A DNA stretch of 64,000 bases from Shewanella subflava (lineage in GTDB: Bacteria > Pseudomonadota > Gammaproteobacteria > Enterobacterales > Shewanellaceae), in assembly GCF_025971955.1 (NCBI RefSeq), contig NZ_JAPDMX010000024.1:159562-223561 (forward strand), given 5' to 3'. Each line of letters opens with the position of its first letter. Within the stretch, counting starts at the first letter, position 1. The position numbers and the translations under genes were made by a program. Below, one piece after another: positions 36,364 to 44,234 of the stretch. The notes below the pieces were generated by a model, which was not told where the DNA came from, did not search any database, and saw only the letters and a list, made by a program, of their open reading frames with translations.

Positions 36364-37587
36364 TTAACTGATAAAGCTTAAATATCCCTGTAGGATGATT
36401 GCATTAACAATATCAATAAAGAACGCCCCTACAATCGGCACAACCATAAAAGCTTGCGGCGAAGGGCCTGTACGAGAGACTAACGCGCCCATATTCATTA
36501 CCGCGGTAGGTGTAGCACCCATGCCAAATCCACAATGACCGCCAGCCATTACCGCTGAATCATAGTTAGATCCCATCACTTTAAAAGTCACAAAGTATGC
36601 AAACAGCCCTAAAATAATGGTTTGTGCAATTAAAATGACGATAAGTGGAATGGCTAAATCAAAAATTTCCCATAGCTTTAAATTCATCAATGCCATCGAT
36701 AAAAACAGTGACAGTGAGACAGTGCCTATCACATCTACTGATTCACGATTAATTTTGAAGCCGCGAGAAACTTCTGTGATATTGGTGATCACAACACCAA
36801 AAAATAAAGCATAAACAAAGTCAGGCATTTTTAACCATGTAAGATGGTATGTTGCCACTAGATGGCTAGTCCATTGTGATCCCGCCACACAGAGCAACAT
36901 AATAAACAGCACTTCTAAAATGCTTTTAGCGGTCACTCGGTCTTCTTCAAGTTGGTCGTAAGTGATTAGATCTGGATGTGCTTTGTGATGTTTTTTTCCT
37001 AATCCAAATGAAGATGTCAGTTGGTTTTTATTAATCAGCCTTTGTGCAACAGGGCCACCTATAATCCCGCCCATCACCAATCCAAAGGTTGCCGCTGCCA
37101 TGGCAAACTCAAATGTTTGAATACCGTAATCTTGCTCAAAGGTTTGTGCCCAGGCTGCGCCTGTACCGTGGCCGCCCGATAAGGTAATCGAACCGGCAAT
37201 TAACCCCATAATAGGCTCTAGGCCGAGTGCTGAAGCAAGACTCACACCGACGGCGTTTTGAATCACAATGTAAACAGAAGCAACCCCTAAAAAAAGGAAC
37301 ACTTTTGCCCCTCCTTTCATCAGTAGTTTGTAACTGGCTGCTAATCCGACCGAGCTGAAAAACATCAACATTAGGGTATTTTGCATCGATAGTGAAAACT
37401 GTAAATGTATGTTTTGGAAGTGAAGGATTGTGATAATAGTGGCAATGATTAATCCGCCGACTATCGGTTCTGGGATGTTGTATTTGCGTAAAAAAAGAAC
37501 ATGACGGTTAACCGAGTGACCGATAAATAATACCAATAAGGCAATGAGAAATGATTCGATCTCGCCAATAGTGAAAGTGGTATCCAT
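36364..37587 (-). CDS. gltS: Sodium/glutamate symporter
   Basis: A 407-residue inner-membrane carrier of the ESS family with about ten membrane segments in two repeats. Pore-loop signatures are seen in both halves: SGGHGTGAAWA and GGHCGFGMGATPTA. It imports glutamate with Na+, which fits a marine organism. It is a single gene. The upstream gap 37588-38030 contains its promoter and the terminator of the next gene. Confidence 0.94.
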   Translation of the reverse strand: MDTTFTIGEIESFLIALLVLFIGHSVNRHVLFLRKYNIPEPIVGGLIIATIITILHFQNIHLQFSLSMQNTLMLMFFSSVGLAASYKLLMKGGAKVFLFLGVASVYIVIQNAVGVSLASALGLEPIMGLIAGSITLSGGHGTGAAWAQTFEQDYGIQTFEFAMAAATFGLVMGGIIGGPVAQRLINKNQLTSSFGLGKKHHKAHPDLITYDQLEEDRVTAKSILEVLFIMLLCVAGSQWTSHLVATYHLTWLKMPDFVYALFFGVVITNITEVSRGFKINRESVDVIGTVSLSLFLSMALMNLKLWEIFDLAIPLIVILIAQTIILGLFAYFVTFKVMGSNYDSAVMAGGHCGFGMGATPTAVMNMGALVSRTGPSPQAFMVVPIVGAFFIDIVNAIILQGYLSFIS

Positions 37588-37978
37588 AAGACTCCTAGTC
37601 AGTAGATTGGCCTAATATGCTTAGCTATAAAAGCGTAAAGGCTAATAAAATAAGTCACTTGTATTATGGGGCACACAAGCAGAATGGAATGACCTATTCT
37701 GACATAAGATCCTGAAAAAGTCTTGTTTACTAGTGTTTTAAACTGATTTAAGTTGTTGATTGGTATGTGAGATGTTGTTTTTGGTAATCAGGATAAGTAA
37801 ATTCTATTTGTTGTGGTTGTTTGTTAACAGATGTTAAGTTCTTTTTTACCGGAAATGTTGACCAATAATTCGATAATATGGCCTAGCTATCAATGAGAAC
37901 ATCGGTTATTAGCATATTCATACCGTATCAGTCTTTGTTATATAACCTCAACTTGGGGAAAGAGGTTAAATAACACCT

Positions 37979-38008
37979 CGGTGGTCAATGGATGTGAATT
38001 GACCACCG
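37979..38008 (-). terminator. Hairpin downstream of the VOC gene
   Basis: A perfect 11-bp stem (CGGTGGTCAAT/ATTGACCACCG) 23 bases beyond the VOC stop, followed on the minus strand by a weak T-rich stretch. The remaining 37588-37978 shows no gene. Confidence 0.6.
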
Positions 38009-38030
38009 ATTGTGCTGCATGCAGACTTAA

Positions 38031-38516
38031 TTATTCGTATTCAGAAGAATAAGTTTCAGAATATGAATGAGAGTAAAGTTCAAACAGATTACCAAATGGG
38101 TCTTCTAAATAAACCATTTTGTATGGTTTGCTATCATCTTCAGGGTGATAGCGCATAATATCCATGCGTGTCTTACCACCGTACTGTTGAACTCTTTCAA
38201 TCACGCCTTCAAAGTCATCCGTTTCTAAACAGTAATGAAAGATGCCAATGCGGCTGAAGTCGACATTATGCTTTTCTTGTCTTTCTTTCATTTCAAACAG
38301 TTCAAAGCCGATACCATCTGATGTAACTAGGTGGGCGATATTAAAGCCTTTAAAGCCTTCACCAAAAACGGCGATACACATTCTACCTATGGCTGATTGT
38401 TTTTCCTCTGTGACGGCTGATTTGCCCATCACAATTTCAAGCCCTAATGCTTTGGTATAAAACTCAACGGCTTTGTCCATGTCGCCAACCATAATACCTA
38501 CATGACTCATCTTCAT
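38031..38516 (-). CDS. VOC (glyoxalase/bleomycin resistance) family protein
   Basis: A 161-residue protein with two beta-alpha-beta-beta-beta modules. Likely metal ligands are His5 (MSHVGIMVGDM), Glu in IGFELFEM, His in GIFHYCLETDD and Glu in FGNLFELYSH. The family covers lyases, isomerases and dioxygenases. Similarity is general and does not fix a substrate. It is a single gene on the fis-downstream side of the integrated element. Confidence 0.82.
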   Translation of the reverse strand: MKMSHVGIMVGDMDKAVEFYTKALGLEIVMGKSAVTEEKQSAIGRMCIAVFGEGFKGFNIAHLVTSDGIGFELFEMKERQEKHNVDFSRIGIFHYCLETDDFEGVIERVQQYGGKTRMDIMRYHPEDDSKPYKMVYLEDPFGNLFELYSHSYSETYSSEYE

Positions 38517-38776
38517 ATCAATTTACCTTTTGTGTGATTGGTGAATTTGTTGCTTGTTCGTGTTGATGAGTGAAGTATAGGTGGAATTACCACGTTATAA
38601 AAATTATCAAAAATTCTTATTTTAATAATATAAATTTATCGTTTTGCTTGGGTATCAAAGAATTAATGATTACATCTTCTAAGTGTCAATCTTAAGTTTT
38701 TGAAAAATAATATTATATATTCAATATGGATTAGCATGCATTTGTAGAGGAACAGGAAGGCAGAAAAAACAACGAG

Positions 38777-38797
38777 GGTACATATTGAGGTACATAT
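38777..38797. repeat. Paired GGTACATAT repeat just outside the element
   Basis: Two exact copies of GGTACATAT at 12-bp period (38777-38785 and 38789-38797), ending one base before the left 78-bp repeat. They sit in the same place relative to the attachment repeat as the integrase-arm-like pair at 42580-42598 does at the other end. They may be the right arm of an earlier integrated element. Confidence 0.55.
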
Positions 38798-38798
38798 A

Positions 38799-38876
38799 AG
38801 CAAAAACGGGCTTCCCATTACTGGGAAGCCCGTTTTGTTACAATCACTTAGACGGTAAGTCTTAGTTCATGCCATA
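38799..38876. repeat. Left attachment repeat (attL) with fis-type terminator
   Basis: A 78-bp segment matching 42604-42681 with no length change. It contains a perfect hairpin (AAAACGGGCTTCCCA with its complement) and then TTACAATCACTTAGACG and the last codons and stop of fis. The mismatches against the right copy fall mainly in the hairpin stem and are compensated, so both copies fold. Confidence 0.9.
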
Positions 38877-39008: not shown

Positions 39009-39027
39009 GTGTAACCATGCGTGTAAC
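39009..39027. repeat. Left subterminal repeat (integrase-arm-like)
   Basis: GTGTAACCATGCGTGTAAC, a 19-bp sequence repeated exactly at 42580-42598. Internally it is two GTGTAAC units at 12-bp period. It ends 11 bases before the integrase start, so integrase binding here could also repress its own gene. Confidence 0.7.
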
Positions 39028-39038
39028 CAGAGGCGACT

Positions 39039-40337
39039 ATGGCGGGTAAGGATAAGTTAAACAATACGGCTTTAGATAAGCTGTTAAAGGAGTCTATAAC
39101 AAAGGCGGTTACTCATAGTGATGGCTTAGGTTTAAGTGTGCGTGTGCGCCCCTCAAAGACCGACAAGCAAAACAATATGAATTGGCTGTATCGATACCGT
39201 ATAGGCGACCGCACTACAAGCCCACAGACCATAGTGTTAGGTAACTATCCTGACTTGTCATTAGCAAAGGCGAGAAAGAAAAGGGATGAGTGCCGAGCTT
39301 GGTTAGCTGACAACAAAGATCCTAAATTTGAAATAGCGTTAGCAATTGATAAAACCATTAAGCCAATTACGGTCGCTGATGCGCTTAACTTCTGGATTGA
39401 TGAATACGCCATAGGCAAACGTACTAATGCGCTCAAGCATAGGCAGCAATTTAATAAATGGTTAGTGCCAGCTCTAGGGCATTTGCCCTTATCCAGTATT
39501 AAAAAATCACATTGGATAAAAACAATCCGCAAACGCTCAAAACAATATCCTGTAGCGGCTGGTTATGTACTTAGAAATTTGCAGCAAGCACTCAAGTATT
39601 GCTCAAAGAAAGGCTATGAAATTGACCGTAGCGTGTTTGATATTGATTTAGATGACATAGACGCTAAGAAGCAAAATAAACGCTCACAAAGGCTTGTGGA
39701 GGATGATAGCTGGCAAAGATTAGAGGATTTAGTTAAATGGCTTGATACAGGCAATATGATGCCTTATTACCGCAACTTAACTTTGCTGCTAATTTCATTT
39801 GGTTGCCGTACTCAAGAAGTCAGGCTGGCTGAAAGCAAAGAGTTTAATTTTGATACTCAAGTGTGGACAGTTCCCGCAGCACACAATAAAACCCGCGATA
39901 AAGACCAAGCGAAAGGCCAAAGTGGTGAGATAAAACGGCCAATCCCACAAGCATTAATCCCCATGCTAAAAAGCTTGTGTGAACAGCATAAAGACGGTTA
40001 TTTACTGGGTGAATTAAAAAACTCAGAAGCGGTTAGTGGTTGGGGTGGCAAAGTGTATAAATTACTCGGCCATGAAGATGCTTGGAGTTTACACGATTTA
40101 AGGCGCACTGTGGCGACAGGGCTAAATGATATGGGCATAGCGCCACATGTTGTTGAGGCTTTACTCGGCCATTCGATACAGGGCGTGGCGGGCATATATA
40201 ACCGAAGCCAGTATTTACCTGAAAAGCTTGATGCGCTTAACAAGTGGCAGGATAGATTAGCGCTATTGCGCGGTGATACAAACAATGTGGTAATGCTAGG
40301 GAGGGTAAGTGGTGAAGCAAAAAAAGGTAGATCCTAA
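39039..40337 (+). CDS. int: Tyrosine integrase (DUF4102 arm-binding type)
   Basis: A 432-residue site-specific recombinase. It has an N-terminal DUF4102-like arm-binding domain (GLSVRVRPSKT, VLGNYPDLSLAKARKKRDE), a core-binding domain (~115-215) and a catalytic domain with all residues present: Arg in GCRTQEVR, Lys in HNKTRDK, His-x-x-Arg in HDLRRTVAT, His in LLGHSIQG and the nucleophile Tyr in GIYNRSQY. It should catalyse insertion at fis and excision. AGAGG precedes the ATG. The next gene overlaps its 3' end by about 26 bases, so expression is coupled. Confidence 0.95.
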   Translation: MAGKDKLNNTALDKLLKESITKAVTHSDGLGLSVRVRPSKTDKQNNMNWLYRYRIGDRTTSPQTIVLGNYPDLSLAKARKKRDECRAWLADNKDPKFEIALAIDKTIKPITVADALNFWIDEYAIGKRTNALKHRQQFNKWLVPALGHLPLSSIKKSHWIKTIRKRSKQYPVAAGYVLRNLQQALKYCSKKGYEIDRSVFDIDLDDIDAKKQNKRSQRLVEDDSWQRLEDLVKWLDTGNMMPYYRNLTLLLISFGCRTQEVRLAESKEFNFDTQVWTVPAAHNKTRDKDQAKGQSGEIKRPIPQALIPMLKSLCEQHKDGYLLGELKNSEAVSGWGGKVYKLLGHEDAWSLHDLRRTVATGLNDMGIAPHVVEALLGHSIQGVAGIYNRSQYLPEKLDALNKWQDRLALLRGDTNNVVMLGRVSGEAKKGRS

Positions 40338-40806
40338 TATTAGAATTATGCGTTTAATTGATATTCAGAATACGCTCGCACAAGGTAAGGTTTTGAATGA
40401 TGAGTGGCTTCAATGGCTTCTGAATGGGCTACATACATTGACAATGAATTATCAAAATAATGAAGCAAAAGAGCCATTTCCAATAGTATCTCCCAAAGTG
40501 CCATTACCGTTGAAGCAGTGTGTTTATTTATTATCAGAGGTTTTTACGCAGGAAGCGTTAGCTGAAATGTCAGTTAATAATCAGCGTTTTACTGCGCCTT
40601 TAGATGTCAGAACAATTGGAAGATACAGGCGAGAAATAAACGAGATTTTAGGTAGAAAGGATGTATGGTTTACTCAAATAAACAATCAACTAATCGAGCT
40701 TAAAAAAGCTTGTGAAAATGAAAGTGAATACTTTTTTTTCCCAAACTCTCTTATTAATTCAATAGATTTTAGTGATCAAAGAGTTAAAAAATATTTAAAA
40801 AAATAG
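40312..40806 (+). CDS. Unknown element-borne protein
   Basis: About 164 residues, probably started by GTG at 40312 (GGAGG just upstream; an adjacent GTG at 40309 is the alternative), overlapping the integrase stop. It is soluble and mixed charge, with a helical middle and a lysine-rich end (QRVKKYLKK). The stretch FTAPLDVRTIGRYRREINEILG resembles a helix-turn-helix or DNA-contact segment, but I do not recognise a family. Position inside a satellite-like element makes a role in copy control, helper interference or defence possible. None is shown. Confidence 0.7.
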   Translation: MKQKKVDPNIRIMRLIDIQNTLAQGKVLNDEWLQWLLNGLHTLTMNYQNNEAKEPFPIVSPKVPLPLKQCVYLLSEVFTQEALAEMSVNNQRFTAPLDVRTIGRYRREINEILGRKDVWFTQINNQLIELKKACENESEYFFFPNSLINSIDFSDQRVKKYLKK

Positions 40807-40899
40807 GTGGACACCAAAAAGCTCCATTTTGGTGTCATGGGCAAAATAAACAAGTTTAAGCATTATTTGTTATAGGCAAACAACAATGGTGATTAAACG

Positions 40900-41088
40900 A
40901 TGACATATCCAGAAAAATTAGTAGACATAAATTATATCAAAATGGCGACCTCATTCAGTCGTACGCGTATTTGGCAGCTTGAAAAGGCTGGTCAATTTCC
41001 TCAAGGTCGAAGATTAACTAAACGATGTGTTCGTTGGTTAGAGTCTGACATCCAGTCGTGGGTTCGTGGCGAGTGGGAGGCTGCATAA
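40900..41088 (+). CDS. AlpA-family regulator / excisionase-like protein
   Basis: A 62-residue winged-helix protein: VDINYIKMATSFSRTRIWQLEKAG, QFPQGRRLTKRCVRW and LESDIQSWVRG are typical of the AlpA/Xis family (MerR-like HTH). AlpA-type proteins switch integrative elements on by activating or bending DNA for excision. Its stop overlaps the next start in a TAATG, so the two are translationally coupled. It follows a 93-base gap that could hold its own promoter. Confidence 0.88.
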   Translation: MTYPEKLVDINYIKMATSFSRTRIWQLEKAGQFPQGRRLTKRCVRWLESDIQSWVRGEWEAA

Positions 41089-41417
41089 TGTCGATGATTT
41101 ATAGTGACGAATGCTTAGAGCTTGGGCTGCCTTTACCTCTTACTGGTGAAAAACAAATTGATTACGTAAAGCGTTTACTGGCCAGTGGGCGCTCTATTAA
41201 TACACGTATTGCTCGTTATATCGGCATTGGTAATTTACATTCGATAGTTTCCACTATGCAGAAACAGAGGTTTCCTTACGCTATAAAACATAGTGCGGTA
41301 TTTTGTCCAAAAACTAAACGTGTTCCGCCTCAACTTGTTGATGTGGTGTGGATGAATGAGGAACAGCTAAAAGAATATTGGGAAATGAAAGGAGCTAAAG
41401 AAAACGCCCCTAACTAA
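41088..41417 (+). CDS. Unknown element-borne protein, predicted HTH
   Basis: A 109-residue protein coupled to alpA by TAATG. The middle (SGRSINTRIARYIGIGNLHSIVSTMQKQRFPY) reads like a winged-helix segment of the type seen in small phage and satellite regulators. The remainder (PPQLVDVVWMNEEQLKEYWEMKG) is helical. No enzymatic motif. It is probably a DNA-binding partner of AlpA or the replication protein. Confidence 0.72.
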   Translation: MSMIYSDECLELGLPLPLTGEKQIDYVKRLLASGRSINTRIARYIGIGNLHSIVSTMQKQRFPYAIKHSAVFCPKTKRVPPQLVDVVWMNEEQLKEYWEMKGAKENAPN

Positions 41418-41504: not shown

Positions 41505-41747
41505 ATGAATTTCACAATTTATTCAGAGCATTTTTTTTATAACATAAAGTTAGTAATTGCTATCGTTGAAATCTACGTATACCAATGGGTTAACAAACTT
41601 AAACATTACTTCCGCATTTACTACCCCTCAAATGTTAGTTATTACTATCAGGCTAAAGCCTTAACTGGCCAGATAACTAAACTCGATTTACCGCCATTTT
41701 CGCCTAGGTTACTTAATAATATCTATGGTGTTCGCTTTGTATCTTAG
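41505..41747 (+). CDS. Small ORF overlapping the replication gene, possible frameshifted N-terminus
   Basis: 80 codons, aromatic- and hydrophobic-rich (YSEHFFYNIKLVIAIVEIYVYQW), ending LPPFSPRLLNNIYGVRFVS. Its last 23 bases overlap the next gene in the +1 frame. No good ribosome site was found at 41505. It may be a separate small protein, or the true N-terminal part of the replication protein split by a one-base insertion or by programmed +1 frameshifting near 41725-41747. Confidence 0.4.
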   Translation: MNFTIYSEHFFYNIKLVIAIVEIYVYQWVNKLKHYFRIYYPSNVSYYYQAKALTGQITKLDLPPFSPRLLNNIYGVRFVS

Positions 41748-42396
41748 CTATCAAGATTACATAGAACATGATGGGCTAATTTGGCGAATTAACACCAAGA
41801 AAAGCGGTATGCACACTAAGCCTTTTAAGCGCTTCTTAGAACAGCTTAATGCCATGTTTGAAGCGCATTCTAAAGTATTCGCTTATCGATTTGATTTGAG
41901 CTTTCCTGCTGACAGCTTGAGAGGCATTAATGATCATACTCAATTTGAAAAGTTTTTGACTCGCTTCAAGAAGCAAATAAAAAACCATTATCAACTAAGC
42001 AAAATAGGGTATTCATGGTCAGGCGAGACAGAGACAAGTAAAAACCAACATTATCATGTGGTGTTAATGCTGAATGGTCACGAAGTACAAAGCCCTAAAT
42101 GGTTACAGTCTCGCATTAGCCGCATTTGGATGGATGTTGGCGGTTCAACTCCCACATGGGTAAGGTTTTATAGATTAGAGCGTAAAGAGTTGGTGAATAG
42201 CCATGACGTTATTTTGATGACTGAGCATAGACTAAAAGAGTCTGGCTGTGTGATTGGATTTGTTTATCATGTCAGTTATCTATTTAAAGGGCGTGGTAAA
42301 GGTTATCTCCAAACTGGTTCGCATAACTATGGCCATAGTCGATTGAGGCGAAAGCGCCAAAGCTCACCTAAAGCTACCACAAAAAATATTACCTAA
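41725..42396 (+). CDS. Inovirus Gp2 / YfjJ-YagK-like replication protein
   Basis: 223 residues with the features of the PF11726 family: SKVFAYRFDLSFPAD, the motif NQHYHVVLMLNGH (His-x-His followed by hydrophobics and Asn), RISRIWMD, and a basic C-terminal tail SRLRRKRQ. The family is found in filamentous phages and in CP4-type and satellite islands and is thought to act in replication initiation. The start is uncertain because the preceding frame may belong to the same protein. Confidence 0.75.
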   Translation: MVFALYLSYQDYIEHDGLIWRINTKKSGMHTKPFKRFLEQLNAMFEAHSKVFAYRFDLSFPADSLRGINDHTQFEKFLTRFKKQIKNHYQLSKIGYSWSGETETSKNQHYHVVLMLNGHEVQSPKWLQSRISRIWMDVGGSTPTWVRFYRLERKELVNSHDVILMTEHRLKESGCVIGFVYHVSYLFKGRGKGYLQTGSHNYGHSRLRRKRQSSPKATTKNIT

Positions 42397-42579: not shown

Positions 42580-42598
42580 GTGTAACCATGCGTGTAAC
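42580..42598. repeat. Right subterminal repeat (integrase-arm-like)
   Basis: An exact copy of the 19-bp sequence at 39009-39027, 5 bases left of attR. Together the two copies are placed as integrase arm sites would be. Confidence 0.7.
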
Positions 42599-42603
42599 TT
42601 AAT

Positions 42604-43958
<1,355 letters not shown>

Positions 43959-44234
43959 TTGCTTTATTCACCTTGCTCTTCAAAGGGGCGCTATAGTAGC
44001 CCTTTTTTACGGGCTTGAAAAGGTCAATAAATGACCTAAATAAAACTTTTTTACTTGACTTTTGTGCTTAGGCTACGATTTGTGACAATTGTACGGTTTT
44101 TAGACAGTAAATTTGACTTTTTGAGCACTGGTGCGTGTTACAGCGAGGTAATTGTTGGGTTAAATGAAGCAATAGACGTGTGTATGAGGGATGTAAATTT
44201 TGTCATAAACACGTCTATGGGGTTAAAAATATCT

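Follow-up and report, generated by a model that had tools for sequence, protein, structure and literature searches.

What is the function of the gene that lies between the integrase gene (int) and alpA in a small island of Shewanella subflava: is it part of the island's own life cycle, or cargo directed against phages? The island is contained in a window of 64,000 nucleotides (contig NZ_JAPDMX010000024.1, positions 159,562 to 223,561; all coordinates below are those of the window unless a contig is named). A preliminary description of this DNA had singled out the open reading frame (ORF) as candidate cargo of a satellite, encoding an unrecognised protein and coupled to the integrase gene by overlap. 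The island was complete and satellite-like, with 3.8 kb between its repeats; int came first, followed by the ORF, alpA, a pair of small ORFs and a replication gene (rep):

38792-38876, no strand: attL, an 85-nt direct repeat comprising the fis terminator hairpin and the last fis codons, 91% identical to the other copy
39009-39027, no strand: doubled motif GTGTAACCATGCGTGTAAC, 12-bp period, just 5' of int, putative arm-type site bound by Int or AlpA
39039-40337, plus strand: int, tyrosine recombinase (Pfam PF13356, 1e-15; PF00589, 1.2e-13)
40312-40806 (or from 40309), plus strand: the ORF in the int-alpA slot, an orphan gene in the position of iolg (overlap, periodicity, searches)
40810-40836, no strand: hairpin with a 10-bp stem, directly 3' of the ORF stop (z -2.0)
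40900-41088, plus strand: alpA, excisionase/regulator (Pfam PF05930, 3.7e-11; PHROG 2790)
41088-41417, plus strand: small ORF in the alpA-rep interval, in the position of PICMI up1, with a weak HTH_7 match only
41505-41747, plus strand: putative small ORF overlapping the start of rep, with a periodicity not above that of a non-coding stretch
41725-42396, plus strand: rep, replication protein with YagK/YfjJ C-terminal and REP_ORF2-G2P domains (Pfam PF11726, 2.9e-13; PF23343, 2.8e-08)
42580-42598, no strand: the doubled motif GTGTAACCATGCGTGTAAC again
42597-42681, no strand: attR, the other 85-nt repeat copy, which overlaps the fis 3' end
42667-42972, minus strand: fis, host gene with the island at its 3' end, present in every genome of the genus searched (128 of 128)

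The att core TTAGTTCATGCC was located at 38862 within attL, and an empty site was found in a sister genome (G063, L091), in which the same flanking genes were joined and one repeat copy was present. PICI satellites, among them those of Shewanellaceae, are known to insert at the fis terminus (PMC10111431). With int, alpA and rep lying between 85-nt repeats at fis, a satellite-like setting of the ORF was borne out. The flanks were unequally similar to the empty-site genome (80.5% identity for the left flank, 37349-38876; 97.4% for the right, 42589-44000), and the DNA to the left of the fis site therefore has a different history from that to its right.

The doubled motif had the form GTGTAAC-N5-GTGTAAC, was present near each end of the element and absent elsewhere in the window, and flanked the att core on both sides at about 85 and 149 nt. 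Both doubled motifs were also present in Shewanella profunda (L026, 7971-7989 and 12486-12504). In helper-embedded PICIs, a doubled motif that also repeats every 12 bp stands at 81 and 132 nt, and none was detected in the fis PICIs of that work (PMC10111431); the Shewanella motif has the same period and a similar spacing to the att core, but a different sequence. Judged from sequence, the GTGTAAC motifs may be considered good candidates for the arm sites of Int or AlpA. Rep was of the YagK/G2P type, with an HYH motif, and stood in the place of a primase. A similar Rep was encoded together with alpA in S. profunda and in the genomes G223, G209, G055, G264, G161 and G053; satellites with a G2P-type Rep possibly form a subclass.

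The ORF (40309-40806, plus strand) is a genuine gene. It comprised 165 codons from the GTG at 40309 or 164 from the GTG at 40312, and was directly preceded by a strong Shine-Dalgarno sequence (AGGGAGG, about 40299-40305) that fits the second start better; the coordinates first proposed (40312-40806) were accordingly retained, with GTG 40309 as an alternative. With the int stop at 40337, the overlap with the integrase gene was confirmed, at 26-29 nt. None of 2000 shuffles of the region contained an ORF of at least 164 aa, the codon-position periodicity was equalled by only 2 of 5000 shuffles, and G+C by codon position was coding-like (0.43/0.28/0.26). Overall G+C was 32.5%, as against 42.7% in int, and codon usage fitted host genes poorly, using statistics trained on the genes of the window; both features are expected of foreign DNA, and the low G+C suggests an origin separate from that of int. 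That this frame is no gene, but a chance or decayed frame between int and alpA, was considered highly improbable: its poor codon fit and the absence of relatives from all collections searched would agree with such an origin, but its length and periodicity exceeded chance, its Shine-Dalgarno sequence was strong and the int-ORF-alpA layout recurred in relatives. The hairpin 3' of the ORF might end the int-ORF transcript, a weak suggestion because its T tail lies in the minus-strand direction only.

The protein was, as the preliminary description had stated, unrecognisable: no family match was obtained in Pfam, PHROGs, PADLOC or NCBIfam, including the excisionase families of Pfam and PHROGs and the PADLOC-DB models for known anti-phage defence proteins. 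No relative was confirmed in PDB, phages, plasmids, viral contigs or genome contigs, nor in the related genomes searched (153 of the family, 395 of the order and 258 Vibrionaceae; more than 700 in total). Two of the weak matches, examined in context (L068, L071), were rejected as chromosomal frames with neither int nor alpA close by. A possible DNA-contact segment had also been proposed. By eye, residues about 79-112 (TQEALAEM...LDVRTIGRYRREI) do resemble a helix-turn-helix, and the ORF product may bind DNA, but the segment was supported neither by profile searches nor by AlphaFold2; the structure prediction that had been recommended was run on the ORF alone, without an alignment, and gave a pLDDT of 44 and no usable fold.

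The slot was compared in 22 other int-alpA pairs, drawn from Shewanella and further genera of its order, from fis PICIs of Escherichia coli and from one IMG/VR viral contig; the E. coli pairs were close relatives of one another, so the 22 pairs do not represent 22 independent events. One ORF occupied the slot in 18 pairs, two candidates in one and none in three. Most slot genes overlapped the int stop or began within 25 nt of it, while four E. coli slot genes were uncoupled, beginning 91-92 nt past the stop. All-against-all and profile comparisons divided the slot proteins into several unrelated families, some of them conserved across genera, and singletons, and similarity of the ORF to the collected slot proteins was not found. 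The only Pfam family among the slot proteins scanned was DUF6387, in two E. coli elements, and none of the 10 scanned slot proteins other than the ORF product matched PADLOC. That the slot proteins all go back to one ancestor and have a C-terminal helix-turn-helix in common was an idea formed by eye and was abandoned, the comparisons giving separate families only. In G055 (L076, 4288-5102), the 813 nt between int and alpA held no ORF of 100 aa and perhaps contain a decayed slot gene. In E. coli S163-2 (L143, 4001-5275), an IS1 cuts the slot gene and everything up to the PICI capsid gene has been lost.

The int-alpA slot is swapped as an exchangeable cassette. Relative to S. profunda DSM 15900 (L026), int was 87%, alpA 77% and rep 46% identical, and the slot proteins were unrelated; DNA similarity ended at 40305, the ribosome site of the slot gene, and restarted within alpA at 40928. 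This boundary at the start of the slot gene bore out the cassette-like behaviour of the candidate cargo. Two E. coli elements (L138 and L141) encoded 100% identical integrases and 98% identical AlpA proteins, but unrelated slot proteins. Between E. coli integrase genes whose products were less than 99% identical, similarity broke off at nt 1160-1175 (of 1218), and different slot genes followed; an integrase version defined at 99% identity or more was found in 8 genomes and its slot gene in 7. The last 9-19 int codons were swapped along with the slot gene (around 5161-5227 in L136-L141; 40305-40337 in the window). At 41088-41417, between alpA and rep, the window and S. profunda (L026, 10136-10429) also have unrelated genes in the same place, and the 3.8-kb element therefore has at least two exchange slots.

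Experimental evidence for a gene in this position comes from PICMI115 of Vibrio chagasii, in which iolg (integrase-overlapping gene) overlaps int and is followed by alpA. Deletion of iolg abolished phage-induced excision and transfer, and an excision complex of Int, IOLG and AlpA was proposed (PMC10803314). In the complementation experiments, the iolg deletion received int plus iolg and an int deletion was repaired by int alone (PMC10803314), so that a polar effect on int is possible in the iolg result. The PICMIs include 13 distinct iolg/icg families, the function of each being unknown, and three subfamilies without a slot gene (PMC10803314).

By position, the ORF belongs with the iolg/icg genes, overlapping int and preceding alpA. 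The explanation favoured here, to which an even chance is given, is that it is an IOLG-type control or excision gene in a minimal, satellite-like fis element. This was preferred because the slot held one gene or none, the ORF overlapped int, no recognised defence gene was found and the counterpart iolg was needed for excision; a role in excision would thus be carried over from iolg, the single positional counterpart tested. The ORF would be translated from the int message and its product would act in the satellite's own life cycle: Int would be constitutive, AlpA would be made on arrival of the helper phage, and the ORF product would be needed for, or would control, excision with both; it would be a DNA-binding accessory component of the excision complex or else a regulator letting AlpA act. 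Recurrence of the int-one gene-alpA layout in Shewanella, the order, the E. coli fis PICIs and the IMG/VR contig argues for this explanation, as do the joint occurrence of an E. coli slot gene (7 genomes) and its integrase version (8 genomes) and the presence of DUF6387, the E. coli slot family, beside alpA in the island ICEKp258.2 (PMC10763509). Against it stand the three elements lacking a slot gene, the failure to find similarity between the ORF and the collected slot proteins, the possibly confounded iolg deletion and the want of structural support (pLDDT 44). The unrelated proteins behind identical integrases in L138 and L141 are also hard to fit to a specific partner of Int; such free exchange speaks against a specific structural partner and would be compatible with a phage-specific sensor or with a defence cassette. 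One such possibility, considered unlikely, is that the slot is a swappable control module: slot genes would be independent and non-homologous, each serving as the sensor or switch for one helper phage, and the ORF would be a new, so far unique sensor; exchange of slot genes between satellites would then change which phage wakes them. Diverse Stl repressors play such a helper-specific role for SaPIs.

An exchangeable cassette against phages or other mobile elements, protecting the host or the satellite from competitors and coupled to int for expression only, was judged less probable than the IOLG-type gene, though a tentative case can be made for it. The extreme turnover, with unrelated genes behind identical integrases, the swap boundary exactly at the slot gene start and the low G+C and orphan sequence of the ORF would all suit cargo of this kind; moreover, PICIs are stated to hold immune systems at their 5' or 3' ends (PMC11364771), and complete PICMI115 protected beyond its UP2 gene alone (PMC10803314). 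Nevertheless, PADLOC matched neither the ORF nor the 10 other slot proteins, a slot with one gene or none is unlike a mixed multi-gene defence hotspot, the recognised PICMI defence genes are placed between prim and fis, and iolg was required for excision (PMC10803314). Interference with phages, as anticipated for the ORF in the preliminary description, was therefore unsupported by the PADLOC searches, the iolg phenotype and the location of the PICMI defence genes. Rather improbable is that the ORF matters mainly as translated sequence added to int: its overlap would keep the int mRNA stable and under translation, its product would be dispensable, and any open frame of fitting size would serve. 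Non-homologous fillers with a conserved overlap, and the complementation of iolg only together with int in PICMI115 (PMC10803314), are consistent with this, but several slot families were conserved across genera, and their products are therefore under selection; the four E. coli slot genes lying 91-92 nt past the int stop are, in addition, uncoupled from it. Overall, the ORF is more likely to be a part of the satellite's life cycle than a proven anti-phage weapon.

The interaction between AlpA, the integrase and probably IOLG was named as an open question in the PICMI work (PMC10803314). The E. coli elements L138 and L141, with the same Int, nearly the same AlpA and different slot genes, make the role of the slot testable in terms of excision, helper specificity and phage protection. 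The Shewanella element is among the smallest complete sets, with a G2P-type Rep replacing the primase.

Among known systems, the fis element of S. profunda DSM 15900 shares the site and the doubled motif and carries an unrelated 202-aa protein in the slot. The fis PICIs, known from Enterobacteriaceae and further families such as Shewanellaceae (PMC10111431), are alike in their insertion at the fis terminus, att core and int-one gene-alpA order, but those examined have a primase, often packaging genes and a larger size (16.5 kb in one case), with slot genes unrelated to the ORF; DUF6387 proteins (PF19924) occupy the same slot in E. coli fis PICIs and have no sequence similarity to it. The element agrees with PICMIs in having an integrase and AlpA, adjoining fis, being small (3.8 kb) and carrying no capsid-remodelling or packaging genes. 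Its Rep (PF11726/PF23343) differs from the PICMI primase (DUF3987/DUF5906), and the element is therefore PICMI-like but falls outside the published PICMI model; PICMIs are further defined by mobilisation by a helper phage and packaging as a concatemer. The likeness of the ORF to iolg is one of position, and the two differ in host and in the length of the overlap (26-29 nt vs. 1, 4 or 13 in PICMIs). The ORF resembles iolg of PICMI115 in reaching into the 3' end of int, in lying before alpA as the sole gene of its slot and in encoding a protein of unrecognised family in a small fis satellite.
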